A stretch of 45,208 bases of DNA from a virus. The stretch lies in IMG/VR virus record IMGVR_UViG_3300024346_000133, positions 1 to 45,208 of that record; one strand, written 5' to 3'. Under the pieces are notes generated by a model that was not told where the DNA came from, ran no database searches, and saw nothing but the letters and a program-made list of their open reading frames with translations. This document shows positions 18,947 through 44,289 of this stretch, one piece after another (positions within the stretch are counted from its first letter, which is position 1; every line of letters starts with the position of its first letter). A program made the translations under genes and the position numbers.

Positions 18947-18971
18947 GCTTTATTAAATTAAATTAAACAAG

Positions 18972-19045
18972 TGACCCGTACGAGATTCGAACTCGTGATC
19001 TTCTCCGTGAAAGGGAGATGTCCTAAACCGCTAGACGAACGGGCC
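18972..19045 (-). tRNA. tRNA-Glu (TTC)
   Basis: Cloverleaf on the minus strand, acceptor GGCCCGT with ACGGGTC, anticodon loop CTTTCAC (TTC). 74 nt to the discriminator A; no CCA encoded. Read-out of GAA codons. Confidence 0.93.
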
Positions 19046-19084
19046 GTTTAGTGTTTATATGTGTAAAATGTAAAATGTTTCAAA

Positions 19085-19345
19085 TTACCACAAACCCCTT
19101 GGACATACCGTCTTTGTTGCTAGGGTTTTTGCAGGAAGATTACAACCGCATCCCTTTACAAGATTTCCTGTTACTGTATGTGGTGCTACTTTCGATGGAT
19201 TACATATAGATCCAAGTCTTAATTCACATGAATCACATATAGACATTCTCTTAGAGGCAACTTGCTTTGTCTCTTCATCGAGTCTGTCAAACTTGTCTGC
19301 TACAAGTCTACCCCAACCTTCTAATATATTTAGAATACTATTCAT
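19085..19345 (-). CDS. Small Cys-rich (zinc-binding) protein
   Basis: 86 aa. The N-terminal ~33 residues are helical (EGWGRLVADKFDRLDEET). The rest carries CDSC (residues 37-40), a single Cys near ICNPS, GCGC (66-68) and a terminal CPRGLW, a pattern for a structural zinc site. A family of small bacterial and phage proteins of this shape exists, but I do not assign a name. It sits alone between tRNA-Glu and tRNA-Ala, just downstream of the hairpin at 19360-19393, so how it is transcribed is unclear. Confidence 0.65.
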   Translation of the reverse strand: MNSILNILEGWGRLVADKFDRLDEETKQVASKRMSICDSCELRLGSICNPSKVAPHTVTGNLVKGCGCNLPAKTLATKTVCPRGLW

Positions 19346-19351
19346 TACATT

Positions 19352-19393
19352 AAAAAATAAACCCTAATGTATAGAAAACTATGCATTAGGGTT
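19352..19393 (-). terminator. Long hairpin with U-tract between tRNA-Ala and 19085-19345
   Basis: A 15-bp stem (AACCCTAATG with CATTAGGGTT extended by CATAG/TATAG) around an AAAA/TTTT loop, followed on the minus strand by TATTTTTTA. It likely ends tRNA transcripts or serves as a processing signal. Confidence 0.75.
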
Positions 19394-19448
19394 ATTCAAT
19401 TGCCACATTAGCTCCACTTTGTTTTGCCAGAGAACAAAGAAACTCTTG

Positions 19449-19522
19449 TGGAGAATAACGGAGTCGAACCGTTGACCTACTGCGTGCAAGGCAGTCGCTC
19501 TAGCCAGCTGAGCTAATCCCCC
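19449..19522 (-). tRNA. tRNA-Ala (TGC)
   Basis: Acceptor GGGGGAT pairs with ATTCTCC (two G-U), D arm AGCTCAGCTGGCTAGAGC, anticodon loop CTTGCAC (TGC), T arm GGTTCGACTCC. Followed by A73 then CA rather than CCA. Confidence 0.94.
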
Positions 19523-19589
19523 ATCTATCCGTTATCTTTAGGTGGATAAAACCCGTCGTAGCCGTAATTACGAACATCTGACTGCGTTG

Positions 19590-19662
19590 AGCGAAAGACC
19601 GGGTTCGAACCGGCGACCCTGACCTTGGCAAGGTCATGCTCTACCAACTGAGCTACTTTCGC
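19590..19662 (-). tRNA. tRNA-Gly (GCC)
   Basis: Acceptor GCGAAAG pairs with CTTTCGC, D arm AGCTCAGTTGGTAGAGC, anticodon loop TTGCCAA (GCC), T arm CCGGTTCGAACCCGG. T73 then CA. Confidence 0.94.
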
Positions 19663-19701
19663 ATTGGTATCATTTATATGATATAAACTATCGGGTGTTT
19701 C

Positions 19702-19738
19702 AAAAAGTGAGGGTAAATATTTGCAACTATTTACCCTC
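19702..19738 (-). terminator. Terminator between tRNA-Thr and tRNA-Gly
   Basis: Perfect 10-bp stem GAGGGTAAAT / ATTTACCCTC with a 10-nt loop, then ACTTTTTG on the minus strand. Placed inside the tRNA array, it suggests separate processing or termination of the Thr end. Confidence 0.7.
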
Positions 19739-19745
19739 GTAAAAG

Positions 19746-19786
19746 ACTTACTCTGGTGCGCTAATCTAACGAAAAGCGTAGTAAGT
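19746..19786 (-). other. Two-level stem-loop downstream of tRNA-Thr
   Basis: ACTTACT pairs with AGTAAGT over 41 nt, with an inner CGCT/AGCG stem and a 12-nt loop. It is right after the tRNA-Thr 3' end and before the terminator, probably a processed spacer RNA. Confidence 0.35.
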
Positions 19787-19793
19787 ACTGTTG

Positions 19794-19866
19794 AGCCTCC
19801 TGTCGGACTCGAACCAACGACCTACTGATTACAAATCAGTGGCTCTACCAACTGAGCTAAGGAGGC
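19794..19866 (-). tRNA. tRNA-Thr (TGT)
   Basis: Acceptor GCCTCCT / AGGAGGC, D arm AGCTCAGTTGGTAGAGC, anticodon loop TTTGTAA (TGT). T73 then CA. Confidence 0.93.
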
Positions 19867-19982
19867 ATTTAGGAAGGTTTTCAACAGACACTTATTCGAT
19901 AGCGTACTTCCAACTGCTTTCTTTTCCCGAAAGTCAACCACAGTAAGTGTACTTACGTGGATTTTTTAGGCTAGACTCAGTC

Positions 19983-20144
19983 TTATTGTGCGACTTCTTC
20001 AGCCACTACTTCTTCAGTTGCTACTTCTTCAGTTGCAACACCTTCTTCAACTACAGTTTCTTCAACTACAGTCTCTTCTACTGCAGCTTCGTTACAAGCT
20101 ACAGCAGTGAAAGCTAGAAGAGCAAAAAGCATAAACTTTTTCAT
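19983..20144 (-). CDS. 53-aa secreted lipoprotein inside the tRNA array
   Basis: A 53-codon frame from ATG 20144 to TAA 19983. The N-terminus KKFMLFALLAFTAVAC is a type II signal peptide: two Lys, a hydrophobic stretch, and a lipobox-like AVA-C with the acylated Cys at residue 17. The mature 37 residues are an acidic low-complexity tail of VEETV and TEEV repeats (about 14 Glu, no Lys or Arg), starting CNEAAVEE. In Bacteroidota, acidic residues just after the lipid Cys can export lipoproteins to the cell surface. The gene lies between tRNA-Ser and tRNA-Thr and is most likely a moron that alters the infected cell surface, for example superinfection exclusion (inference). Confidence 0.75.
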   Translation of the reverse strand: MKKFMLFALLAFTAVACNEAAVEETVVEETVVEEGVATEEVATEEVVAEEVAQ

Positions 20145-20204
20145 ATTACTCTTATTTGATAATTAAACCTGAAAGTGATCTTCCGTAAGATCATGCTTTC
20201 ATTG

Positions 20205-20289
20205 CGGAGGCGGTAGGATTCGAACCTACGGACCTGTTACAGTCAACAGTTTTCAAGACTGCCGCGATCGACCACTCTGCCACGCCTCC
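20205..20289 (-). tRNA. tRNA-Ser (TGA)
   Basis: 85 nt with a long variable arm (TGACTGTAACAGG region). Acceptor GGAGGCG / CGCCTCC, anticodon loop CTTGAAA (TGA). G73 then CA. A hairpin (GATCTT/AAGATC) at about 20179-20194 sits just downstream, before the lipoprotein gene. Confidence 0.93.
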
Positions 20290-20367
20290 TTGCACTATTT
20301 TTAAGGAATAGTTAAACCTTTTTTGGAGCCAATATGTCAAAGAACTCTGAGTTACACGCCTGGGTTG

Positions 20368-20441
20368 TGAACCGCTCAGGAATCGAACCTGAAACCTACG
20401 CATTAGAAGTGCGTTGCTCTATCCAATTGAGCTAGCGGTCC
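20368..20441 (-). tRNA. tRNA-Arg (TCT)
   Basis: Acceptor GGACCGC / GCGGTTC, D arm AGCTCAATTGGATAGAGC, anticodon loop CTTCTAA (TCT), T arm CAGGTTCGATTCCTG. A73 then CA. Reads AGA codons. Confidence 0.94.
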
Positions 20442-20464
20442 AAATCTTATTAGATTTAGACTTG

Positions 20465-20546
20465 TGCGGATGAAGGGAATCGAACCCCCACTTCGTAAGA
20501 AACCAGATCCTAAGTCTGGCGCGTCTACCAATTTCGCCACATCCGC
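20465..20546 (-). tRNA. tRNA-Leu (TAG)
   Basis: 82 nt with a type II variable arm. Acceptor GCGGATG / CATCCGC, anticodon loop CTTAGGA (TAG), T arm GGGGTTCGATTCCC with a mispair. A73 then CA. First gene of the tRNA array. Confidence 0.93.
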
Positions 20547-27944: not shown

Positions 27945-28586
27945 TTAAGATAACTCTTTGATTTTTTGGATGAAATCCTTAACGTCGTGTGAAAACAAAA
28001 GGTCTTTGTTTTCTAAAAGTATACTTTCTTCTACATCCCACCATTTTATGTCTAAAAGATCTTTAATAGTTTCATCATCGAATCTTTTTTTGATTGGTTT
28101 TGCTGGTGAACCACCTATTATTGTATAGGGCTCAACGTCTTTTGTTACAATTGCATCTGTTGCTATAATTGCTCCATGGCCAATAGTAACCCCTGACATA
28201 ATAGTTGCTGCATGTCCAATCCAAACATCGTTACCTATATTTATGTCTCCATTTGAAAATATAAAATCAGATGGATCATATTCAGTGTCAAATGGTAAAT
28301 ATGTTGTAACGTTTTTATAGTCATGATTTCCGCTTAGCATAAACTTACAACCCCCTGCAATTGAAACATATTTACCTATATTGATCTTATACTTATCTAA
28401 GTGGAATAATTCAGTGTATATCTTAGAGTTAGTGCTTTTAATTATCTCATAGTCTCCAGTGGCCCTAGCCCTAAGAACACTATTTATAAACCCGTCTTCT
28501 TGTTTTTTGGTTATTTGAACATTTACAATACTAGGCTTGTTATTAAGGGCTAGCATCATCTGTTGATTAAGATCTAGTGTTATCAT
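27945..28586 (-). CDS. CatB-like O-acetyltransferase (left-handed beta-helix)
   Basis: 213 aa. The C-terminal part shows hexapeptide repeats INIGND VWIGHA ATIMSG VTIGHG AIIATD AIVTKD (residues about 115-150), then the conserved GGSPAKPIKKRF, as in xenobiotic/CatB-like and maltose acetyltransferases. The SGNHDY motif (85-90) has the catalytic His88. Such enzymes acetylate hydroxyls of sugars or small molecules using acetyl-CoA. It starts 3 nt after the large-terminase stop, so it is part of the packaging operon, but it has no T4 counterpart. Target could be LPS or capsule sugar of the host or fibre-linked glycan (inference). Horizontal gain from a bacterium is likely. Confidence 0.85.
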   Translation of the reverse strand: MITLDLNQQMMLALNNKPSIVNVQITKKQEDGFINSVLRARATGDYEIIKSTNSKIYTELFHLDKYKINIGKYVSIAGGCKFMLSGNHDYKNVTTYLPFDTEYDPSDFIFSNGDINIGNDVWIGHAATIMSGVTIGHGAIIATDAIVTKDVEPYTIIGGSPAKPIKKRFDDETIKDLLDIKWWDVEESILLENKDLLFSHDVKDFIQKIKELS

Positions 28587-28589
28587 AGC

Positions 28590-30419
28590 TTATTTCAAAA
28601 GGTCGTAAATATCGTATTGTAGATCACCATCAATATCTTGATCCTTGTAAAGGATTTGTTCCATCTCGGTATGCATTTCATCTTCAATAACATCTAGAAG
28701 TTCTTCTACGAAGTCAGCATAATCAATTGTTTGCAAGAATTCTGATATTGTAACGCAAGACATTAATGTATCGTCATTTCCGTGTTGAGCTCCGTAAGAA
28801 CCATTTGCCTTTACACCAAACATCGATGCCTCTTTAATAGTTTCATTTTCTGTAAAGTTGATTCGGTTTTCTTCTACCATCTTTTTAAGATTCTGGCACA
28901 TTACAGCCTTGTTATCTGACTTAATTTTAATGCCAGGCTTAAATGTTCTTGCATCATGACGGTGTTTAAACCTAACGATCATTTCTTCATCAAATTCGTT
29001 TCTTTGCGGGAACAGAGTTGTCAGATACTTAATCAGGATAGAACCATATGTGTTGAATTCAATGATCAACTTAACGTTTTCTGGATTAAACACCTCTACT
29101 GAAAGTGTATAAAGTACTTTTGCAAAGTCTTCAATAGTATGTTCATTGGATCTAAATAGTCCAACTTGCTCTAACCTAAAGAAGTCATACATAGCCCCTG
29201 GATTTGGAAGCAACTTCATGTGTTTATTCTGCATCGGAACAATCTGGAACATATTAATAACTGAATAGTCACCTCCATTTCCTTCGGCAATATCTACTGA
29301 GAATACAAAATAGTTCTCACTATCGGTAGCACTCTCAATATCAAAGCCTGGTCTAAATCCAAGGTATCCCTTGAGGTCCATGTTGATGTTTTCGAAATCT
29401 TCTAGATCTTCATACTCATATTTGATCATGCCCTTACGTAGCTTCTTCATAGTCTGTGGATCGAATAGAAGGTTTGATGAACTAACGAACTCATTACCAT
29501 ACTGTCGGTTAAACGCATCCTCTGAGCCAAGGTTCTTCAGCTCTCGTTGGTACCATGTATCATCTCTATCAGGGTGTTGCCACCAGTCGATACGCATCGG
29601 CTTGTAAGCATTAAGACCCTTATCAGCAGCATCATAGATTTCATAAAACTTATTAAATCCGTTTGGTGTTGATGTGATAATGATCCTAGAAACTTTAGAA
29701 GCTGAAAGTGTAGGATAAACGTTTTCATAGAATGAATCTACGATAGAAGGGTGGATGTGAGCAAACTCGTCAAGGAACAGGGTGTGGATCGTAAAACCGA
29801 TACCTGCCTTTGCAGTTGTTGCTTGACCAACAAGACGACATCCGTTATCACACTTAACGTTCATGACATCATACTTAACAATACCAGGCTTCATAAAGAA
29901 CGGAAGGTTCTCGATAACTGTCTTTGCCTTGTCGATGATTTCTTTTGTAGAGTCTGACTTGTTGGCAAGTAGTAGTGTGTTTTTATCAACCTGAAATGTA
30001 AGGTACCATGCATTAAAGATAGAGGCTGTAACTGTTTTACCCATCTGACGAGAAGCAAGTACAATATTGAACCTCTCATTTTGGAAGTTACGTAACATAT
30101 CCTTTTGATAGTCACGAAGCTCAACTCGACGAATACCCTCGTCTGTCATAACTACAGCATACTTCTCTGCAAAGTAAACAATATCACTTGCACACTTTGC
30201 TAGTTCTTGAATCTCTTCGTCAGTATATTCAAAGACGATATTACCCTTACGAAGAAACTGTTTACCCTCGTAAAATGGCAAGGCAACCTTAGGCCTATAA
30301 CCCTGATCAAGTGCTAAAACAAGGTCATTAACCTTTTTAGTTGACCAGATAAGTTTAACTGCCTGTGTATCGCCGTCATCTTTTGGAATCCAAGCATTAT
30401 CACCTACGTAGTCACTCAT
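28590..30419 (-). CDS. gp17: Terminase large subunit (gp17)
   Basis: 609 aa, nearly the T4 gp17 length (610). N-terminal ATPase: Walker A SRQMGKT at 123-129, Walker B LFLDE at 214-218, coupling motif TSTPNG at 249-254. C-terminal RuvC/RNase H-like nuclease: Asp375 in FSVDIAEGNGGDYS, a middle acidic site near KLIIEFNTYG, and NDD in GAQHGNDDTLMS. It cuts concatemeric DNA and pumps it into the prohead through the gp20 portal. It overlaps the small terminase stop by ATGA, so the two are made together. All catalytic residues are present. Confidence 0.95.
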   Translation of the reverse strand: MSDYVGDNAWIPKDDGDTQAVKLIWSTKKVNDLVLALDQGYRPKVALPFYEGKQFLRKGNIVFEYTDEEIQELAKCASDIVYFAEKYAVVMTDEGIRRVELRDYQKDMLRNFQNERFNIVLASRQMGKTVTASIFNAWYLTFQVDKNTLLLANKSDSTKEIIDKAKTVIENLPFFMKPGIVKYDVMNVKCDNGCRLVGQATTAKAGIGFTIHTLFLDEFAHIHPSIVDSFYENVYPTLSASKVSRIIITSTPNGFNKFYEIYDAADKGLNAYKPMRIDWWQHPDRDDTWYQRELKNLGSEDAFNRQYGNEFVSSSNLLFDPQTMKKLRKGMIKYEYEDLEDFENINMDLKGYLGFRPGFDIESATDSENYFVFSVDIAEGNGGDYSVINMFQIVPMQNKHMKLLPNPGAMYDFFRLEQVGLFRSNEHTIEDFAKVLYTLSVEVFNPENVKLIIEFNTYGSILIKYLTTLFPQRNEFDEEMIVRFKHRHDARTFKPGIKIKSDNKAVMCQNLKKMVEENRINFTENETIKEASMFGVKANGSYGAQHGNDDTLMSCVTISEFLQTIDYADFVEELLDVIEDEMHTEMEQILYKDQDIDGDLQYDIYDLLK

Positions 30420-31063
30420 TGTTCTGTTGATTCGTCTTCAATTTCGGCATCCTCAATCACATTGCCAGCAATACCAGCCTGGATCTGAGCCATTAAGTCT
30501 TTAGTACCTCTTTGTACGTTTTTAGATGCACCGTCTTCTATGTGTTTATCAAGTACATCTCTATTTGTTCTTTCTTGATACATCTCAGCATCTCTAGCGA
30601 TTCGCTTCATAGATTCCTCAGTTGCCATCAAGTACATTGTTTGTGATTTGATAATATCTAGCATTGACTTCTGAAGAGTTGCTAGAACCTCAAACATTCT
30701 AGGAGCAAGATCACCTTCTTCAATAGTTTCAAGAAGTCTTGTTAGTGCTCTCTCACCGGCTTGAAGCTGGAATACCAATGACGACATTGTCATTTCGTCC
30801 ATGCGTTTCTTTGCCTTTACATATTCATTGTGTTCAATGATGTCTGCATCTAGATAGAAACGCATCAATGAATCGATAGTCTTTTTAGCCTGCTTGTCAG
30901 CACCTGACTTTACTTCTCTAAAATCAAATGGTTCATATTGTTTTGCTGGAAGCTGTGGATCAACCTCTACAATCCCATCTAATGACTCATCGTCACCTAT
31001 TAAACTGTCTAATTCGTTTCTAATCTCGTCTGCCTGCGAACGCAGTGGTTTACCTTGTGCCAT
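30416..31063 (-). CDS. gp16: Terminase small subunit (gp16-like)
   Basis: 215 aa from ATG 31063. A longer frame back to 31117 exists, but a GATATATA motif (31089-31096) lies 26 nt before the chosen start and the longer one would overlap the upstream gene. Long alpha helices dominate (AKKRMDEMTMSSLVFQLQAG, TRLLETIEEGD, LATLQKSMLDIIKSQTM), consistent with the gp16 coiled-coil ring. The C-terminus is acidic. Its place directly before gp17 with an ATGA overlap supports the call. T4 gp16 is 164 aa. It binds viral DNA to start packaging. Confidence 0.75.
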   Translation of the reverse strand: MAQGKPLRSQADEIRNELDSLIGDDESLDGIVEVDPQLPAKQYEPFDFREVKSGADKQAKKTIDSLMRFYLDADIIEHNEYVKAKKRMDEMTMSSLVFQLQAGERALTRLLETIEEGDLAPRMFEVLATLQKSMLDIIKSQTMYLMATEESMKRIARDAEMYQERTNRDVLDKHIEDGASKNVQRGTKDLMAQIQAGIAGNVIEDAEIEDESTEQ

Positions 31064-31088
31064 AAATGTTATTATGTTATTCTGATAA

Positions 31089-31096
31089 TATATATC
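31089..31096 (-). promoter_or_regulatory. Late-promoter motif before terminase genes
   Basis: GATATATATT, 26 nt before the ATG at 31063, overlapping the end of the metallopeptidase gene. It supports the downstream start of gp16. Confidence 0.6.
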
Positions 31097-31781
31097 AGAA
31101 GTTTGGAATGCCGCCAATAACTTTGGCTCTCTGTCTCCATGTATCTAGAACCTGCTGTCTAGTATCAGCATTTAAATATGTCTGTGTATCTAGGTACCTA
31201 TTAACTGTATTAGTCATAGGTTCCTTTCTACTTTTAGCCTCTCTTCTAAGGCCTTGGATATTTGCATCAATCTCTTTTGGAAGTAGTAGATAGAAGTGTT
31301 GTGGTAGAACTTCAGCCTCGATAAGCTCTCTCATACCTGAATCATCCTGGTTTGGTTTTCCAGGTCTGTAGTTACCAATGTCAGCACCATCTTGTGTAAT
31401 GTGTTCGATCTCATGTCTCATTACATCGATAAGGTGGTTATAGATCTCTGACCAATAACCCGGAAGCCATGCAGGCTCACATGTAAAGTCTACAATAATA
31501 AAAGGTGTTTGATCATCGCCTTCATCGTCAATGTCTCTACCATCAGCTCCTGTTGAATTAAGAATATTGAATCCCTTTCCTTCGAATCTAATTGTACAAT
31601 CAAGGTCAAACTCAAGCTTTTTAGGACCTAGCTCAATCTGCTCGTAAAATGAACTGCTCTTCTGTCCTTTTGAATAGTCAGAAACCCACTTCTTGATCGT
31701 TGCACCTGTTAACTTTCTTGCTAGAGAGTCGTAGCTAGATCTTTCAGTAATGTATTGTTCAAACAGTTTAATATGTTTCAT
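31095..31781 (-). CDS. HEXXH metallopeptidase with capsid-targeting-like N-terminus
   Basis: 228 aa. Residues 120-127 (VMRHEIEH) contain HEIEH, the zinc-binding HEXXH motif, on a helix after a beta-rich half. Further acidic residues (RELIEAEVLP, 151-160) could supply the third ligand. The N-terminus MKHIKLFEQYITER resembles T4's internal-protein targeting peptide MKTYQEFIAEA, cleaved by gp21 after an (I/L)-x-Glu; ITE fits that rule. I infer a protein that may be packaged in the capsid and ejected with DNA. It starts 2 nt after the neck-gene stop and is followed by the terminase genes. It could be a maturation helper instead. Metallopeptidase call is good; packaging is a hypothesis. Confidence 0.65.
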   Translation of the reverse strand: MKHIKLFEQYITERSSYDSLARKLTGATIKKWVSDYSKGQKSSSFYEQIELGPKKLEFDLDCTIRFEGKGFNILNSTGADGRDIDDEGDDQTPFIIVDFTCEPAWLPGYWSEIYNHLIDVMRHEIEHITQDGADIGNYRPGKPNQDDSGMRELIEAEVLPQHFYLLLPKEIDANIQGLRREAKSRKEPMTNTVNRYLDTQTYLNADTRQQVLDTWRQRAKVIGGIPNF

Positions 31782-31783
31782 AA

Positions 31784-33721
31784 TTATCTAGAGTTTCTAT
31801 ATCTCTGATATGATAGTGATGGGATTGCATTGTCAATAACTAATGCTAGGTGTGCATCTCTAACCAAAGTTTGGTTTAGAATATTTGAGTGTTGCTCTTC
31901 TTCAATAAGCTTCTTCCAAATACGGATATTTGTCATCTTTAGTTTACCACCGCGTAGTTGGTAACCCTTATCTAGATCCCAGATAAACTTCTGAGTTACT
32001 GGTCTAATTTCGCTAAACTGCAACTCTAGGTTGTTATCACCATCCTGTGGTCTAATGTAGTTCAACTGATCGTTTAGATAGTACATATGTAGACCGATCT
32101 CTAGGAAGTCATTTGATAGATTAACAACTACACCATACCATTCATCGGATCCAAGGATCATATTGTGTAAGAATGTATGTACCTGATTATTTACGATGAA
32201 TTCAAACCTTGTTGAAGAAATTCTCATAGTCAAACCAACACCGAAGCTTTCACCGTTGATGATTGTATATTTTTCATTATCAATGGAATCAAATGTTGGT
32301 GAAAACCAGAATGTGAACGCTAAGTTTTCATCTTGAGACTGTTTAGCCTTTTGTAGATATTCAACTGCGGTTTCATCAAATGTAATCGTACTTAAATCGT
32401 AATGATGCTTAGAGACCACAGTCCATCTGTTCTTTAGGTTGTAATCAACAATCTTAACTTCTGCATTTGCAGATGATCTAACACCATCTTCCCAAATATG
32501 TGAAACGCCTTGTAGTTGCTGTGGCTTTGTTGACTTTGTGTATTCGTCATTAATCTCAGCTCCAAAAATATCTTCAATACCAACAACTAGATTTTCTAGT
32601 TCAGCTTCAGCTGCTGCATTTTTAATAACTGCAGTTCTATCCTGGTATTTAGTAAGCATAACTCTCCAGTATGTATGGTTAACATTAAATTCGTCTGCTA
32701 ACGCAACTGATTTAACTTCATACATTTTATTATTCTTAGGGAAGTACAAGTAGTCTTTTACCCTAGGTCTTTTAAACTGTCCAAATGCTTTTTCAAACTG
32801 GTAGTCTGTGATATGAATTTCAAAGTCCTCGAACCCGATACCAAAAATATCGAATGCCATTGCCTCTGTTGGGAACTCATTATCTGGAACTGATACCTTT
32901 ACATTCTGCTGGTCAACAACATCAAACAAGGAGTACTCCATAAAGATAACATCCTTAGTTCTTTCTCTTGGTGCTGTTCTATAATAACGAACATCCCATC
33001 CAAAAATATCTGATGTGATCTCAGTCAACTGTCTATAAAGATTGCTAGACTTTGTTAATTGATATGGCTTAAAAATATTCGTATCATCAACACACGGCTT
33101 GATATTTGCACAACCAGTATATGAGAACGGGTCCGTGCAATCTAGACAGTATTGTGGGCATGAAACGATTGTACCATCAACTGCTTCAATCGTAAATGTA
33201 ATATCGATTAGAGTAATGGTAGTATTAGCTGATAAGTAGTCTACTTCAGCCTTAATATCTAGGTATACCGGATTTGTTCCATCCCATGTGATAAACATAA
33301 GATCACCCGGGTTCATATCTCTTGTCAATAGCTGAAACTCACTAAACTCTTCGTTTGTATGTGACCATCTATAGTAATATGTGAACTGGTTGTTTACGTT
33401 AGTCTCTAGCATGAACTCAACCATAGATGCTGAGAACAGGGCTGGTGTAGTCAACTCAACGTGTATTGGAGAAACTTGAACCGCTACTTCTAAAAGAGTA
33501 TTACCCACAATGATCTTATCACCTGGGTTTAAATTAAATGAAGTACCGTATCCAGAAACTGTAGTAGACCCTTCGGTAAAGCTTATTTTACCGATAGTAA
33601 AGTCATTTCTTATTCCAGCTAGAATGGCCCAATCGACAACACGAATAATGTTCTCGTATGGCTCAACTAACTTGGCAATAAACTTGTCTCCAATTGCGCT
33701 TGCTGTAGTACCGTTAACCAT
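31784..33721 (-). CDS. Neck protein, gp14-like, with Cys cluster and LamG-like C-terminus
   Basis: 645 aa, far longer than T4 gp14 (256 aa). The FGQFKRPRVKDYLYFPKN and KMYEVKSVALADEF segments (about residues 315-345), then YWRVMLTKYQDRTA, resemble the conserved core of cyanophage neck proteins (PREGDLIYFP, then FEIKFVEH). Residues 188-210 carry five Cys (CPQYCLDC then C then C), suggesting a metal or disulfide cluster. Residues about 430-640 (LAFTFWFSPTFDS, DEWYGVVVNLS, LKMTNIRIW) look like a LamG/concanavalin-like beta sandwich. The neck connects head and tail; the extra domain could attach whiskers or bind glycans. A TATAAATA sits 4 nt before the ATG. Confidence 0.6.
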   Translation of the reverse strand: MVNGTTASAIGDKFIAKLVEPYENIIRVVDWAILAGIRNDFTIGKISFTEGSTTVSGYGTSFNLNPGDKIIVGNTLLEVAVQVSPIHVELTTPALFSASMVEFMLETNVNNQFTYYYRWSHTNEEFSEFQLLTRDMNPGDLMFITWDGTNPVYLDIKAEVDYLSANTTITLIDITFTIEAVDGTIVSCPQYCLDCTDPFSYTGCANIKPCVDDTNIFKPYQLTKSSNLYRQLTEITSDIFGWDVRYYRTAPRERTKDVIFMEYSLFDVVDQQNVKVSVPDNEFPTEAMAFDIFGIGFEDFEIHITDYQFEKAFGQFKRPRVKDYLYFPKNNKMYEVKSVALADEFNVNHTYWRVMLTKYQDRTAVIKNAAAEAELENLVVGIEDIFGAEINDEYTKSTKPQQLQGVSHIWEDGVRSSANAEVKIVDYNLKNRWTVVSKHHYDLSTITFDETAVEYLQKAKQSQDENLAFTFWFSPTFDSIDNEKYTIINGESFGVGLTMRISSTRFEFIVNNQVHTFLHNMILGSDEWYGVVVNLSNDFLEIGLHMYYLNDQLNYIRPQDGDNNLELQFSEIRPVTQKFIWDLDKGYQLRGGKLKMTNIRIWKKLIEEEQHSNILNQTLVRDAHLALVIDNAIPSLSYQRYRNSR

Positions 33722-37620: not shown

Positions 37621-38124
37621 ATGGCATACTCAAAGAAATACCCTAAGATAGAATACAACCGCGGAGTTCGTGGGAGATTCGGCGTGTCTTTTAAGACCCT
37701 GTTAAAAGGACAGAAGAGATTCATCATGGATCACCATAATATCAAGGAGTTGATTAATGATGAACAGGCACTGAAGGCCATCATGGGTATTTACCGTGGA
37801 ACTAATGACAGTTCAAAGGTTAAACTGTTCTATGACTGGACTGAAGGTGACCTTAAACTAAAGTCAGATCTAAATGAGTCTTACTCAATGGTCGACTGGA
37901 AGTGTGCAATATCTGGAAGACCTATTAAAAGTAAGATGGGCGAATTCGACGCCAAGAACTTTGTACACCCTGAATACTGGGAGTCTTTAGAGGGGTCAAT
38001 CAATCAAAATGTACTTAAGTCTTCACTTGAGTTTCGTCTAAAATGTCAAGAGCTCCTCCTGAATCAACAGAAGGAGCTCATGAAAGTGTTTAAAAAGAAC
38101 GCTAATCCTCGAAAGGAATTATAG
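37621..38124 (+). CDS. Hypothetical plus-strand protein
   Basis: 167 aa, not recognised. Start 37621 (MAYSKKYPKIEYNRGVRGRF) keeps a basic N-terminus; a shorter start at Met36 (37726) is possible. It is charged, with a DWTEGDLKLKSDLNESYSMV segment, a VDWKCAISGRPIKS loop and a helical tail (LKCQELLLNQQKELMKVF). It is one of only two plus-strand genes and shares a divergent intergenic region with gp44. Its stop codon overlaps the stop of the minus-strand gene at 38119 by 6 nt. Confidence 0.6.
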   Translation: MAYSKKYPKIEYNRGVRGRFGVSFKTLLKGQKRFIMDHHNIKELINDEQALKAIMGIYRGTNDSSKVKLFYDWTEGDLKLKSDLNESYSMVDWKCAISGRPIKSKMGEFDAKNFVHPEYWESLEGSINQNVLKSSLEFRLKCQELLLNQQKELMKVFKKNANPRKEL

Positions 38125-40020
38125 GCCTGCTTGACCCTTTGCTAGTGCAGCGAACTTTTCTCTAACAGAAATATTCATAACAGGATTGATACCCTCGTTT
38201 AGAGAAGTTCTCATTTCCTTAGTTGTGATTTCTGTATTGATCTTTTGATATAGTGCAGTGTTATCAAGCTGCCACTCCTCTTTCTCGTGGATGTAAACAA
38301 CTAGATCTTCCATACCAGCGTTAAGAGCTCTTACAATTAGAGATTCCTTTGGAGTAAGAATCTTCTCTAGCTTCTGTCTTTCAGCCGATAGTGCTGCAGT
38401 GATCATTGCAATCTTATCTTTAGACGCTTTGTCAGAATTCTTAGCAAGATCTTGAATCGCTTGCTCATATTCAGCAATCTTAGCCTTAATAGCCTTAGCT
38501 TCAGGAGTCTCTTCTACTTTAGTTGTTGTAGCTGGGGCTGGAGCTGGAATTGGTTCCTCAGATGGCTTTGGAGCTGGGGCTGGAGCTGCTTTCAAATCTG
38601 TAAGCTTCTTTTGAGCTGCCATAACCTTACCTTGTAGGTCTTGAACACCTGCTGTATCGCCTTGTGTTGACTTGATTCTCATCTGAAGATCTAGAATATT
38701 AAGATCTGCTTGAGCTAGTACAACCTTATCAGCCTTATCGATATTGCCTTTAGCCTCTTTAGCTGCATCAAGTTCGTTCTTAAGTGCAACAAGTTCGTCG
38801 TCACCTTTAACATCAACCTCTTGATCTGCCGCAGCATCTTTAAATTGTTGCATTGCAACAATCTCTTCTTCTTGGCGTCTCTTAAGATCTTCCATTCTCT
38901 GACCAAGATCTTTCTTCTTACCTGGATCGTCAGATAGACCTGTCATGTGCTTGATAAGAGCCATTTGACCGTCCATTCTTGCAACATCAACTGCTTTATT
39001 AACATAAGGAGTCTTATCCTTAATTCTGTCCATAAGCATTGCTTGAAGTTCTTTAATCTGATCTTCAATCATTTTCTTCTTAAGGTTTAGAGCAGAAACT
39101 TTATCAGCTACTTCAGCAGATCTACCTAGGTTTGAAGCAGCAAAGCCAAGATCGAATGCATTCATCTTCATTTGGTTGATTCTCTTTTGAATCTTGATGA
39201 ACTTGCTAGCACCTCTCAACCAGTCGATAATACCTTCATTTACTAGCATCTCAGTGATTTCTAGATCTTCGAAGTTCTTAAGTGTTTTGTTATATAGTGA
39301 TTCGTTGCTGCCGGCAGTTGCTTCTGGCTTTTCGTAAGGCATCTTACCGTTCATGTCGTTTTTCTTACCCTTTGTCTTTTCCTTCTTTTCCTTGTTCATG
39401 CCAGATTCTTTTTCTAGCTTTTTAAGTGCAGCATTTTCATCCTTTAGTCTAGTTGCAACCTCTTTCATTCTCTTCTTAAGGTCTGCAGTTTTATTTGGAT
39501 CGTCAGATAGACCTGACATGTGCTTAATAAGTTCGAATTGACCTTCTAGCTTAGTCTTGCTAAGTACTTTTTTAACATATGGACCTCTTTCTGTAGACTT
39601 ATCATCTACCATTTTCTGAAGTTCTTTTACTTGAATGTCAACTGCCTTCTTTTTATCTTTTGCAGCTGCTTTTCTATTTGGATCTTTTTCAGCCATTGCG
39701 GCCATTTGAAGATCCGCAGAGTTCATTTTCATTTGGTTAATTCTCTTCTGCATCTTTCTAAACTTACCAGCGTATAGTAACCAGTCAGCAACCTTAGATG
39801 GACCTTCTTTACCTGCTTCAACAACTGAAAATTCAGTAGATTCTAGATCTTCAACAATAGAATTAGAAAGAGTTTCAAGTGAATTAATAATAGTATCTAC
39901 GTCTTTAATGATTATTTCTCTAGAAACAGCTGGAGCATCTACTACAACTGGAGACTCTTCATTAACGTTGTTCATGAATTGCTCATGCAACATGATAGAC
40001 TTCCTTAGATTTAATTTCAT
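38119..40020 (-). CDS. Coiled-coil virion/core-type protein with duplicated domain
   Basis: 633 aa. Two homologous ~125-residue domains: residues about 80-210 (WLLYAGKFRKMQKRINQMKM and LIKHMSGLSDDPN) and about 260-400 (WLRGASKFIKIQKRINQMKM and LIKHMTGLSDDPGKK). Both are helical and very charged. A linker rich in Ala/Pro (APAPAPKPSEEPIPAPAPA) follows, then a helical end. The N-terminus SIMLHEQFMNNVNEES resembles the capsid-targeting-like starts of the 31095 and 43927 proteins; Met10 has an AAGGAAG before it and may be the real start. It follows the capsid gene after a terminator and a GATATATA motif (32 nt), so it is probably a late head-internal protein. Confidence 0.6.
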   Translation of the reverse strand: MKLNLRKSIMLHEQFMNNVNEESPVVVDAPAVSREIIIKDVDTIINSLETLSNSIVEDLESTEFSVVEAGKEGPSKVADWLLYAGKFRKMQKRINQMKMNSADLQMAAMAEKDPNRKAAAKDKKKAVDIQVKELQKMVDDKSTERGPYVKKVLSKTKLEGQFELIKHMSGLSDDPNKTADLKKRMKEVATRLKDENAALKKLEKESGMNKEKKEKTKGKKNDMNGKMPYEKPEATAGSNESLYNKTLKNFEDLEITEMLVNEGIIDWLRGASKFIKIQKRINQMKMNAFDLGFAASNLGRSAEVADKVSALNLKKKMIEDQIKELQAMLMDRIKDKTPYVNKAVDVARMDGQMALIKHMTGLSDDPGKKKDLGQRMEDLKRRQEEEIVAMQQFKDAAADQEVDVKGDDELVALKNELDAAKEAKGNIDKADKVVLAQADLNILDLQMRIKSTQGDTAGVQDLQGKVMAAQKKLTDLKAAPAPAPKPSEEPIPAPAPATTTKVEETPEAKAIKAKIAEYEQAIQDLAKNSDKASKDKIAMITAALSAERQKLEKILTPKESLIVRALNAGMEDLVVYIHEKEEWQLDNTALYQKINTEITTKEMRTSLNEGINPVMNISVREKFAALAKGQAGL

Positions 40021-40115: not shown

Positions 40116-41558
40116 TTACGCTAGGTTGATTAGGTTATTCCATGTTGTTTTTAGGATGTTGAAAGTAACATACTGAGTTTCTGGGTGGAAACCTGCCTCA
40201 ACTAGAGCGAATCTAGACTTAACAGCAATTTTAGGAGCCATAGTACCCTCAGCGATTGTCTGTACTGATTCAGCCATTAGGTATGGCATGAATACTAGAC
40301 CTGGAGAGTTACCATCACCTTTTCTACCAACTACAACTGAGTAATCGTCCCATGCTTTTCTTGGGTCAGTGTATACGTTGATACCAGCAACTGAACCTAC
40401 AGGGTAGATTGCACCAGCAGCTTGAGAGAAAGTGTTAGCCATTGGGTTTGCAACGAAACCAGCAACAGACTGAAGAACAGTAGCAACTTGTGGGCCTACA
40501 ACCGCGAAGTTACCAGCACCTCTTCTACCTCTGTTAGCGATTAGGTTAGCAGCAGCTAGAACTTGTGTTAGGATTTGTCTGTGTGCAGATGCAACAGTCT
40601 CACCACCTGCTAGAGCAGCAGCAGCTGGAAGAGTGATATCCATACCACCAGAAGTTAGAGCAGCAGTAACGTTTGCAACACCTAGAGTAGCCATTTTAGC
40701 TAGGATTAGGTTGTTGATTGACTGAGTTAGTTCGTTAGTTAGAACAGCCTCAACTTGAGCAACAGCGTCAACGCCGAATTGCTTAAGATCTTGAACTTGC
40801 TCTCTAGTAACTGCAGCAGCAACTTGGAAAGTTTCAGCAGCAACGCTCTTAGAGAATAGAGATAGACCCATGATGTTCTCAGGAGTCTGCTCACCTAATG
40901 CTCTATTGAATGGGTTACCATCCTTATCAGCAGCAGAGAAACCTGGGATGTGGTCTTCTAGAGCCTTAACTAGTTCAACTGTTGCAGCTGGAACAGCTAC
41001 AGCCAATCTGAAGTCAGCCTGTACGTTAGCAGCGATTAGTGCAGTACCGATCACCTTGTAGATGTCGTTACCGTCGATTCTTGAAGTACCAATGAACTCG
41101 TATGCAGCGTAAGTAGCAGAACCAGCGATATCAGCACCAGTACCTGAATCAGTTGAGAAGTAGTATACGTTATTAGCATTTGCAACATTTCTTGCAGAAC
41201 CACCGTCGTATACGAAGTCTAGGTAAGAAAGTAGACCCATTGGACCAGCCATAGGAACTACAGGAACTAGATCTAGACCTACAGTTTGAGCAGCAACTTG
41301 CATTGCTAGTGGAAGTAGAGATGGAGCCTTGTCACCAGAACCTTGAGCACCTGTCAAGATGTTTGGAAATTCAGCAGCGCCCATACCTTTTAGCATCAAC
41401 GGCTGTACAGCTGATAGAGATGCTTCTTCATAAAGCTTGTGATTGTGGCAGTATTCTGACATCCAAGCTAGTTTGTTTGAATCGCTGATACCTGTAGCTG
41501 ACTCGATGATTGGAGCCCATGTTGCCTTGATTTCAGCTTCATTAATTAAATTTGCCAT
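40116..41558 (-). CDS. gp23: Major capsid protein (gp23)
   Basis: 480 aa (T4: 521). The start NLINEAEIKATWAPIIESAT with GISDSNKLAWMSEYCHNHKL is the gp23 signature. The middle has LVPVVPMAGPMGLLSYLDFV, a match to the T4 region near the maturation cleavage. The C-terminal P-domain-like part (IMGLSLFSKSVAAETFQVAA, LTNELTQSINNLIL) is typical HK97-fold. It forms the hexamers of the head and is probably cleaved at a Glu near residues 45-65 by gp21, as in T4; the site is not certain. A strong terminator follows it, matching its need for heavy expression. Confidence 0.95.
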   Translation of the reverse strand: MANLINEAEIKATWAPIIESATGISDSNKLAWMSEYCHNHKLYEEASLSAVQPLMLKGMGAAEFPNILTGAQGSGDKAPSLLPLAMQVAAQTVGLDLVPVVPMAGPMGLLSYLDFVYDGGSARNVANANNVYYFSTDSGTGADIAGSATYAAYEFIGTSRIDGNDIYKVIGTALIAANVQADFRLAVAVPAATVELVKALEDHIPGFSAADKDGNPFNRALGEQTPENIMGLSLFSKSVAAETFQVAAAVTREQVQDLKQFGVDAVAQVEAVLTNELTQSINNLILAKMATLGVANVTAALTSGGMDITLPAAAALAGGETVASAHRQILTQVLAAANLIANRGRRGAGNFAVVGPQVATVLQSVAGFVANPMANTFSQAAGAIYPVGSVAGINVYTDPRKAWDDYSVVVGRKGDGNSPGLVFMPYLMAESVQTIAEGTMAPKIAVKSRFALVEAGFHPETQYVTFNILKTTWNNLINLA

Positions 41559-41783: not shown

Positions 41784-43868
41784 TTACTTCTTGAATCTAG
41801 CTGCAAGTGCTGCTGCGATTTCAGTTGTATCGTATGTGATTGATGTCTTCTTAGGAGCCTCAACGTTTGTTGATTCCTTGATCATCTCAACCTTTTCCAT
41901 AACTTGAGACACTTCTCTTAGGTCTCTTGTCTGCCAGAAGTTTCTAACTTGGTAAGGAGTTGACAACTTAACCATCTTAGATTGCGCAGTTAGTTGGTTT
42001 CTCTTAGCTTCAGATAGAGTGTTCCATAGCTCTTTGTATTCTGATGGAGCAGCTTCTACAAAGTATGGAGTTGTTTGATTAGCAACCTCAACTAGAGCAC
42101 CTTCCATTAGAGTAACAATTTGAGACTCAGTTAGGTAACCTCTGCCTTCGATAGAAGAAATAACCTTCTCTCTATCAGAAACTTCTAGTTCGTTGAATCT
42201 AGTTTGTGTAGACTCAGAAACAAACTTGAAGAAGTGTGGGTCGTTTGTCTTCTTCTCTGTTGCCTTGTTGATTAGAGCAGATAGCTTCTCAGAAATCTCT
42301 TTCTTATAAGAATCTAGTGCAGACTCTTCAGCCTCAACTACTTCTTTAGCACCTTCTTCGCCCTCGTCAGATGGTATCTCTTGGTCAGCAGTATCGATGA
42401 TCTTCTTGTCATCTTCAGAGTTAACCTCTTTCATGTCAGCCTTGATATCTTCAGCTGGTAGACCAGCCTCTTCACCATTAGCCTCAACTACTTCCTTAGC
42501 ACCTTCTTCACCCTCATCTTTAGGCATTTCTTGGTCACCAAGTTCAACTTCTTCCTTAACCGTTACAGGGTAAGTCTTGCCGTCGAATTCAAACTCCTCT
42601 TTACCTTCGTCTTTAGCTTTCTTAGCAGCTTCAGCGAATGCTCTACCTTCTACTACTTCTTTAGCACCTTCTTCACCTTCGTCAGATGGCATCTCTTGGT
42701 CAGCAGTATCGATGATCTTCTTGTCATCTTCAGAGTTAACCTCTTTCATGTCGGCCTTGATGTCTTCAACTGGGATGCCAGCTTCTTCACCCTCTTCTTC
42801 CATGATTAGGTTAGAGTTGATAGTTTCAGCGATGTAATCTGCATATTCAGAGATTGACTCGATGTTTTCTTTTAGGTAGTTCAAGTACTTAGCCATATTC
42901 TCTGAAGTAGTTGCACCTTCGTTGTAAGCCTCAGCTAGATAGTTAGCGTAGTCTTTAACGTTGTTAACTGATTCAGCAATGTGCTCAGAGTATTCGATAC
43001 CTTGATCTAGCTTTTCAGCGATGTAGTTTGAATACTCGATATTGCTGTCAAGTTTTTCAGCAATGTATTCAGAGTATTGGATGCCTTTGTCAGCTCTTTC
43101 AGCAACGTATTCTACGTAATCTGTAAGAGCTTTCATTTTCTCTTCGATAGACTCAGTAGAAACGCCTGCTAGAGAACCCTTAAGTGTCTTGATTTCTTCA
43201 GCAAGATAAGTTGAATACTTATTGAAATCTTCAACACTTACAAATCTAGCGTTGTTTTCCATGATTGTGTCGTTATTATTTTGAGTGGATGTTTCGCTTG
43301 TTAGCAGGTCTTCAGCTGTAGCATCAGTCATCTCATAAATAAGAAGACCGTCATTTGAATCGATGCCATAGGCTTCGTTCATTCTCTTTAGTTCAGCGTT
43401 TTCAAAACCTGGATCCGCAACTAGATCGTAAGTGAATAGTTGCTTAATTTTTACTTTACCATCAGACTCAACAACACCAGCTGCTCTAGAAGAGATGTGC
43501 AATGGAATACCAGCATCAACAAGCGCTTTAGCCTGCTTACCAGCATCTGTATCAAGAAGTCTGATTCTTCCCTTAATAAGATTTGTTTCTTTGTCGTATG
43601 AAAGTTCTTCAATAACGTGAGAAACACTCTTTAAAGAGATATCGAATTTCTGTGGGTGATCTAACTCACCAAGAAGCTTCGATGATTTGATTTTGTCCTG
43701 TAGAGCTTCGATCTGTGGTAGGTACTCTTCAGCAGTATAGATACGATTGTTTCTATTCTTTTTGTCAAGTTCTCCAAAAACACCTTCAAGAATGTATGAG
43801 CCGTTTGCAGCTTCTACAGTCAGTGTGTTAGATGATCTCTCTAGGATCAGTAGATTATGTTGATTCAT
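41784..43868 (-). CDS. gp21: Prohead protease fused to scaffold (gp21-gp22-like)
   Basis: 694 aa, about the sum of T4 gp21 (212) and gp22 (269) plus extra. Residues 1-190 are the prohead protease: LGELDHPQ (His71), HISSRAAGVV (Ser126/127) and DLVADPGF (Asp148-Asp152) give the His-Ser-Asp catalytic set. Residues about 230-355 have five 14-residue repeats like YSEYIAEKLDSNIE, heptad-based scaffold coils. The C-terminal half is acidic, with two large repeats (GEEAG.P.EDIKADMKEVNS then DDKKIIDTADQE) near residues 355-405 and 462-512. The final region is helical. It would cleave itself and gp23 during maturation. A late motif sits 22 nt upstream. Confidence 0.85.
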   Translation of the reverse strand: MNQHNLLILERSSNTLTVEAANGSYILEGVFGELDKKNRNNRIYTAEEYLPQIEALQDKIKSSKLLGELDHPQKFDISLKSVSHVIEELSYDKETNLIKGRIRLLDTDAGKQAKALVDAGIPLHISSRAAGVVESDGKVKIKQLFTYDLVADPGFENAELKRMNEAYGIDSNDGLLIYEMTDATAEDLLTSETSTQNNNDTIMENNARFVSVEDFNKYSTYLAEEIKTLKGSLAGVSTESIEEKMKALTDYVEYVAERADKGIQYSEYIAEKLDSNIEYSNYIAEKLDQGIEYSEHIAESVNNVKDYANYLAEAYNEGATTSENMAKYLNYLKENIESISEYADYIAETINSNLIMEEEGEEAGIPVEDIKADMKEVNSEDDKKIIDTADQEMPSDEGEEGAKEVVEGRAFAEAAKKAKDEGKEEFEFDGKTYPVTVKEEVELGDQEMPKDEGEEGAKEVVEANGEEAGLPAEDIKADMKEVNSEDDKKIIDTADQEIPSDEGEEGAKEVVEAEESALDSYKKEISEKLSALINKATEKKTNDPHFFKFVSESTQTRFNELEVSDREKVISSIEGRGYLTESQIVTLMEGALVEVANQTTPYFVEAAPSEYKELWNTLSEAKRNQLTAQSKMVKLSTPYQVRNFWQTRDLREVSQVMEKVEMIKESTNVEAPKKTSITYDTTEIAAALAARFKK
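42331..42475 (-). repeat. Acidic-domain direct repeat, copy 2
   Basis: About 140 bp, roughly 93 percent identical by eye to 42650-42790. It codes the ADMKEVNSEDDKKIIDTADQ block of the scaffold region. A partial copy, QEMPKDEGEEGAKEVVE, lies near 42482-42534. Confidence 0.8.
42650..42790 (-). repeat. Acidic-domain direct repeat, copy 1
   Basis: Partner of 42331-42475; in-frame duplication within the protease-scaffold gene. Confidence 0.8.
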
Positions 43869-43926: not shown

Positions 43927-44289
43927 TTACAAATCAGCCATTAGATCGGCAGTATCACCGCCTTCACCGCCTTCTTTCTTTTTCTCTTCTTCCTTCTCTT
44001 TTTCTTTAATTTCTGCTTGATATGCGTTCCAATAACCAACTACCTTAGAAATATCTGCTTCAGCAAATGTAGTCTGTCCAAACTTATCGTACATTTTATC
44101 CTTTACTTCCTCTTCTGTTTCAGAAGAAATAACAATACCTAGAAGTTCTTCAGAAGAGATTTCAGTACCGTTTGTTGTGATCATATCGTCGATTACAACT
44201 TCTGATTCTTCACCTGCTTTGATAGCATCTTCATTTGTAGTTGCCGCTCTATTAGAAGCAAACTGTTCGAATGTAAGTATCTTTTTCAT
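43927..44289 (-). CDS. Prohead core protein (gp67/gp68-like position)
   Basis: 120 aa. It lies between portal and protease genes, the T4 place of gp67 and gp68. The N-terminus MKKILTFEQFASNRA resembles the 31095 protein and T4 capsid-targeting peptides. A central helical part (ISSEELLGIVISSETEEEVK) is followed by a very charged tail (EKEKEEEKKKEGGEGGD). It is likely a core protein cleaved during head maturation. The leader GATAAATAAACAATG is A-rich. The assignment is by position and composition, not clear sequence identity. Confidence 0.6.
   Translation of the reverse strand: MKKILTFEQFASNRAATTNEDAIKAGEESEVVIDDMITTNGTEISSEELLGIVISSETEEEVKDKMYDKFGQTTFAEADISKVVGYWNAYQAEIKEKEKEEEKKKEGGEGGDTADLMADL

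Follow-up and report, generated by a model that had tools for sequence, protein, structure and literature searches.

The gene at positions 31095-31781 probably encodes a head-loaded, injected enzyme that resembles zinc peptidases and carries a tag that is cut off. The window, meaning the whole stretch of 45,208 nucleotides that was analyzed, spans a virus record of 45 kb and contains a late block of T4-like type. Read directly from it were a leader, a cut-site motif, a co-encoded protease, conserved residues of catalytic type and a position among late structural genes. The reading we favor, with somewhat better than even confidence in the whole of it, is that of a T4-like ejected internal protein which loses its leader and is injected as a peptidase that cuts a protein in the infected cell. 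According to this model, the 13-residue leader would dock the protein into the prohead core during head assembly, and the co-encoded gp21-type prohead protease would cut after Ile-Thr-Glu13, freeing a mature enzyme of roughly 215 residues within the head. The mature enzyme would be injected with the phage DNA and, as a zinc-dependent metallopeptidase (HEIEH plus Glu170), would cut, in the first minutes of infection, some protein present in the cell just entered, perhaps one that serves in defense. Taken singly, packaging and cleavage are probable and injection is fairly likely, while a host protein as the target is a possibility to which we give slightly less than even weight.

The features of the window to which the analysis refers are the following.

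31095..31781, minus strand: HEIEH metallopeptidase-like protein with a capsid-targeting-like leader, an ORF of 228 aa
31743..31781, minus strand: leader codons 1-13 (MKHIKLFEQYITE), with a predicted prohead-protease cut between Glu13 and Arg14
31401..31415, minus strand: HEIEH, residues 123-127, on helix 110-128
31263..31277, minus strand: KEIDA, residues 169-173, with Glu170 on helix 168-185 as candidate third metal ligand
31784..33721, minus strand: neck / head-closure (Hc2-like) gene, a conserved neighbor directly upstream of the HEIEH gene
30416..31117, minus strand: terminase small subunit, a conserved neighbor whose called frame runs over the 3' end of the HEIEH gene
41784..43868, minus strand: gp21-type prohead protease (PF03420) fused to scaffold-like repeats, candidate leader-removing enzyme
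40116..41558, minus strand: gp23-type major capsid protein, with N-terminal LINE-A and KLYE-E
38119..40020, minus strand: candidate prohead core protein, called from its sequence only, with a leader-like start ending NVNE
43927..44289, minus strand: small acidic protein with a MKKILTFEQF prefix, in a gp67-like position beside the portal

The late block comprises the portal end, the small acidic protein, the protease-scaffold fusion, the gp23-type capsid protein, neck, terminase, sheath and tube. The ATG of the HEIEH gene lies 3 bases past the stop of the upstream neck gene, and the order neck-HEIEH-TerS-TerL-sheath was conserved among close relatives. In the window and in most of these relatives the HEIEH gene stands alone, without a fused partner. 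A hexapeptide-repeat acetyltransferase-like gene (27945-28586) lies between the terminase large subunit and the sheath. Elsewhere, the window carries seven clustered tRNA genes on the minus strand (18971-20546; Glu, Ala, Gly, Thr, Ser, Arg and Leu), and the short ORFs that overlap this cluster are likely spurious. At 2-2740 there is a collagen-like protein, composed almost wholly of two short repeats, which ends at the window edge; the long plus-strand ORFs over its gene are antisense artifacts.

The translated product reads MKHIKLFEQYITERSSYD...RHEIEHITQ...KEIDANIQG..., with the N-terminus MKHIKLFEQYITER and RHEIEH at residues 122-127. The original prediction had likened the leader to T4 targeting peptides with an (I/L)-x-Glu cleavage point, and had pointed to HEIEH in the body of the protein. 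The likeness holds, as T4 ipI starts MKTFKEFTSTTTPVSTITE, followed by Ala, and T4 gp21 cleaves after (L/I)-x-E (PMC9026906). The cleavage point is present as ITE at residues 11-13, and HEIEH is present at residues 123-127. In the T4 IPIII leader, targeting and cutting are governed by residues 4, 7, 8 and 10 (PMC9026906). A point against the favored reading is that the residue after the predicted cut (P1') is Arg in the window protein and Gly or Ser in most homologues.

Searches of viral contigs with a DNA pattern for leader residues 1-10 (MKHIKLFE-x-F), which left positions 11-13 free, matched at least 120 stretches. At the free positions, 67 of 92 distinct proteins had [ILVM]-x-E and 74 of the 92 had Glu13, and past position 14 the sequences diverged. 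Among 85 of the pattern-found proteins that were of at least 60 aa there were 54 unrelated clusters, which shared residues 1-10 apart from position 9. A wider leader search of the fetched loci yielded 251 proteins in 109 clusters; its regular expression requires the cut site, so the frequency of the site rests only on the free-position test and the comparison of ORF starts with internal Met positions. In that comparison, made on loci chosen for the HEIEH protein only, the 10-residue leader form was at 132 of 2262 six-frame ORF N-termini, 101 of which continued with [ILVM]xE, versus 16 of 8436 internal Met positions, and these counts ruled out the leader as a chance N-terminus. The near-invariant form in this phage group is MKHIKLFEQF(I/V)NE, and the leader is common to 109-117 unrelated protein families in related phages; its bearers have it in common by descent or exchange, and the counts are thus not of independent events. 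Large contigs had up to 16 exact matches each, and the reversed pattern had none. By these comparisons one tag is carried by many unrelated bodies, and the leader is beyond chance.

Within the window the leader prefix was matched by two ORFs, and only the HEIEH ORF had the xxE site; the other, the small acidic protein, lacks xxE at positions 11-13. The strict leader form was found neither in 150 kb of Flavobacterium phage immuto nor in 45 kb of T4. A tblastn search of isolate phages with a 25-aa leader peptide gave no match, the query probably being too short. In 10 of 11 cases, a zinc-ribbon-like module (C..C.W.W...GG.D...CHKC..DN) was observed between the leader and the cut site or before an internal site (L112 5945, L014 10701, L177 8698, L225 6282 and L228 4023), and this module is perhaps part of the propeptide.

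The candidate enzyme for removing the leader is encoded in the same late block. The window protein at 41784-43868 matched PF03420 at 5.4e-10 (39.5 bits versus a curated cut-off of 27), and among 26 large related contigs PF03420 was present in 24 and the Gp23 capsid protein in 23. In the window a long acidic, scaffold-like part in which (Y/H)(I/L/V)AE recurs is joined to the protease, so that a single polypeptide may serve as both protease and scaffold and cut itself; most related contigs have protease-scaffold fusions of similar size (mostly open frames of 600-830 aa). The capsid proteins of the clade have conserved LINE-A and KLYE-(D/E) near the N-terminus, matching the cut rule, and both they and the scaffold-like region are likely substrates of the prohead protease. 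The 633-aa protein at 38119-40020 had no family match above cut-off. It has a duplicated module (QKRINQMKMN...) split by EITEMLVNEG, as well as a C-terminal SLNEG, and it looks like a core protein that is cut into pieces. The window protein thus has, by sequence, the marks of a T4-type internal protein: a leader ending (I/L)-x-E, a gp21-type protease in the same window and the same leader on non-homologous proteins.

Homologues of the window protein were found at 105 loci (66 distinct sequences) from viral contigs and one isolate phage. The only annotated phage among them was Flavobacterium phage immuto, where the match lies within gp088 (L027 12907-15630, YP_010114595.1), a multidomain protein annotated as NadR with NTase-like and cytidylyltransferase-like domains, a HEMIH domain and a HEIEH domain. 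The annotated NadR function does not apply to the matching region, as the window protein aligned to the C-terminal part, outside the nucleotidyltransferase domain. A bacterial, host-derived origin was likewise not supported: bacterial genomes gave two loci only, both on MAG contigs, and at least one of these (L230) encodes a phage-type fused protein. That protein, on a Winogradskyella MAG contig (L230, from 5853), has two HEIEH domains, with the sites ELSE-GRYD and LMTE-GAYD before them. In a further group (L188, L193, L197, L202, L210 and L020), the HEIEH domain follows an N-terminal part that looks ParB-like (LLDGYSRAARMLR...), and the two meet at (V/L)FE-RYxKLDS.

Among 64 distinct non-fragment homologues, [ILVMF]xE stood directly before the domain in 36 stand-alone proteins (the window protein included) and 16 fused ones, two of the latter (L221, RLNE-GVYD, and L226, QLNE-GIYD) being read by eye from the printed region. 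Ten stand-alone homologues had no site directly before the domain, with the starts of L216 and L219 uncertain, and eight to ten distinct stand-alone homologues had no leader, which indicates that not every member of the family is delivered in the head. Three leaderless homologues begin M-(G/S)RSKYD, which is the predicted mature N-terminus.

In the fused homologues, (L/V/M)xE-G precedes the HEIEH domain. Whole-protein counts of [ILV]NE were mixed (enriched in L221, L225 and L226, absent in L223 and L224) because L223 and L224 use MAE, VKE and LAE, and this count was replaced by a junction test in which cargo bodies, stripped of the leader, were matched against every ORF of the fetched loci. 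The body of 21 of 117 cargo clusters was also found within a larger protein, and [ILVMF]xE was present at 179 of the 188 internal junctions of these 21 cargo families, meaning that the motif at the end of the leader recurs between the domains of fused proteins. With one junction taken per cluster, the site was at 18 of 21 versus 27% expected at random positions (p 2.5e-8). When the 935-aa fused protein L226 was modeled with AlphaFold, each of its five LNE motifs fell in a segment of pLDDT below 50; for segment 345-526 the low value also reflects a thin alignment. The junction counts suggest that the fused proteins are polyproteins cut by the prohead protease. Our search of open-access papers found no report of enzyme polyproteins matured by the head protease in T4-like phages. 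Head targeting and cleavage after Glu13, as originally predicted, are well supported by independent sequence evidence, namely the shared leader, the protease, the predicted disorder described below, the leaderless starts and the junction sites. The same open-access literature yielded no virion proteomics or mass spectrometry for this clade, the immuto virion included.

The original prediction depended on HEXXH being kept in homologues, and it was: HExEH and the downstream KE(V/I)DA were each kept at all 105 loci, even where identity fell to about 29%, so that HEIEH too is beyond chance. Part of this sample was retrieved with patterns touching one or other motif, and variants such as RHELEH, RHEVEH and KEVDAM, retrieved via the other pattern, still kept both. 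An AlphaFold model of the window protein, built from 22 sequences, had a mean pLDDT of 86.8. Residues 1-14 were below 50, and the fold opened with a helix from residue 14, the first residue beyond the predicted cut. Strands were modeled at 42-51, 56-65 and 94-101, followed by the helix of HEIEH (110-128) and that of Glu170 (168-185), both in regions modeled with confidence. Zincin-like domains have been described as an N-terminal helix followed by a sheet, the HEXXH helix and a helix with Glu (PMC5512222); the modeled order is close to this, with extra helices interspersed. A HEXXH motif with a conserved Glu on a later helix is the gluzincin-type arrangement, and the invariant Glu170 is a candidate third metal ligand.

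Pfam and PHROGs returned no meaningful match to the window protein (one chance-level Pfam line), and Foldseek against the PDB found none at E 0.001, the best E being 0.18. VIA-align gave no Z above 4.1; its rows at Z 3-3.7 included several zinc peptidases interspersed with unrelated proteins, and the absence of Z at or above 5 shows nothing either way. Three matches in BFVD at E 0.001 were all to unnamed phage proteins. The zincin fold is therefore a putative assignment that rests on motif and topology. We regard peptidase activity as probable.

Few of 109 cargo representatives matched Pfam, and the names given here are family-level ones for proteins of related phages, none of them in the window. 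One tagged cargo matched Tad3 (PF25185, a Thoeris inhibitor family) at 5e-22. Another was a 2H phosphoesterase with two HxT motifs, which matched PF13563 at the cut-off and Acb1 (PF23474) at 3e-5, below the curated cut-off. Further tagged cargo included GNAT, zeta/AAA_33, cytidylyltransferase, ATP-grasp and a DUF2201 metallopeptidase-like domain. The Tad3 members have the leader and a second site, SINE-G, immediately before the Tad3 domain. Leader-tagged 2H phosphoesterase genes lie near Tad3 members in L232 and L234, and L234 shares one 256-kb contig with a HEIEH homologue. A search for Tad3 among open-access papers found none. That the window protein targets a host defense protein, as the original prediction suggested, is plausible, and becomes more so through the Tad3-family and Acb1-like proteins that carry the same tag in related phages.

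The main rival to a host target is that the enzyme, packaged and perhaps injected, processes the phage's own proteins, its substrates being fused (polyvalent) cargo or head proteins. Sequence alone fits the processing of co-injected phage proteins about as well as it fits a host target. Distant relatives fuse the domain to a cytidylyltransferase, a Pol-beta-like NTase, a second HE(M/L)IH domain and a nucleotidase, and exactly such a role was proposed for the zincin domains of polyvalent proteins by Iyer et al. 2017 (PMC5512222), who weigh both host and phage substrates. However, the gene stands alone in the window and most close relatives, and the prohead-protease-type motif at the fused junctions means that a second processing enzyme is not needed. 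On balance we consider a processing role unlikely, though it deserves to be kept in view.

We think it improbable that the leader is no packaging tag and that the product is a non-virion late protein, such as a neck or terminase assembly factor, with a peptide for some other localization. The conserved position between neck and terminase genes and the missing leader of some homologues would suit such a factor, but the same leader on unrelated cytidylyltransferases, 2H phosphoesterases, a GNAT, a zeta-like kinase and Tad3-like proteins does not speak for one assembly role. The leader also ends as the gp21 rule would have it, with a motif seen again where domains join. The least probable of these readings, and a quite doubtful one, is a packaged but non-catalytic product, which would either have a structural role inside the head or be a pseudo-enzyme that inhibits and only looks like a metallopeptidase. 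It draws on the lack of a Pfam or PHROG match and of a confident structural match among known peptidases. Against it, both motifs are kept in every one of the 105 loci and lie within helices that are modeled with confidence.

If packaging is confirmed, the leader would allow the injected proteome of a large uncultivated phage group to be read from sequence by one simple rule, and more than 100 families, mostly of no known function, would become candidates for acting before phage gene expression. Judging from the Tad3-like and Acb1-like members, part of the counter-defense would already be loaded in the head, in addition to what is produced once infection has begun. Fusions separated by cut sites would be unusual, as a tailed phage would be maturing enzyme polyproteins with its head protease. 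We tentatively speculate, with rather less than even confidence, that leader and inter-domain sites make up a modular head-loaded arsenal by which any protein or string of enzymes could be packed, cut within the head into separate mature parts and co-injected, including Tad3-like and Acb1-like proteins and a host-acting metallopeptidase.

Among the closest known systems is that of T4 Ip1-3, a precedent for injected inhibitors of host defense: these proteins share only their leader, are injected and inhibit GmrSD enzymes (PMC12373910). Both systems have a short N-terminal MKxxxxF... leader ending (I/L)-x-E, non-homologous bodies, a gp21-type protease and a gp23-type capsid. In contrast to T4, where packaging is proven, packaging here is inferred; no body homology was seen, the leader is near-invariant over 109-117 cargo families, and the cargo includes a putative peptidase. 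T4 Alt, a packaged ADP-ribosyltransferase with propeptides cut by gp21, is likewise a head-packaged enzyme with a removable N-terminal peptide, though of another enzyme class, the likeness being drawn from the literature (PMC9026906). Phage P1 DdrB and DarA are similar by description, as processed proteins packaged in the head, and DdrB bears a C-terminal MPTase (PMC5512222).

Polyvalent proteins, among which Iyer et al. 2017 distinguished 12 MPTase clades (PMC5512222), resemble the HEIEH family in the predicted zincin-like domain, in the Pol-beta-like NTase fusions of distant relatives and in adjoining late structural genes. Unlike them, most HEIEH copies are single-domain with their own leader, and fused copies have prohead-protease-type sites between domains. 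The window protein, being single-domain, falls outside the polyvalent definition of at least two unrelated domains, under which its distant relatives do fall. The anti-defense families Tad3 (PF25185) and Acb1 (PF23474) have members that bear the leader among the cargo of related phages; these accompany other cargo in relatives and are distinct from the window protein itself, and the Acb1 match is below the curated cut-off. The tag-and-cut principle is thus already known from T4, and multidomain injected proteins from the work on polyvalent proteins. What is new, as far as the sources searched go, is this family of peptidases, together with the presence of one near-invariant leader on 109-117 families of a single phage group and with fused proteins that have head-protease motifs at their junctions.
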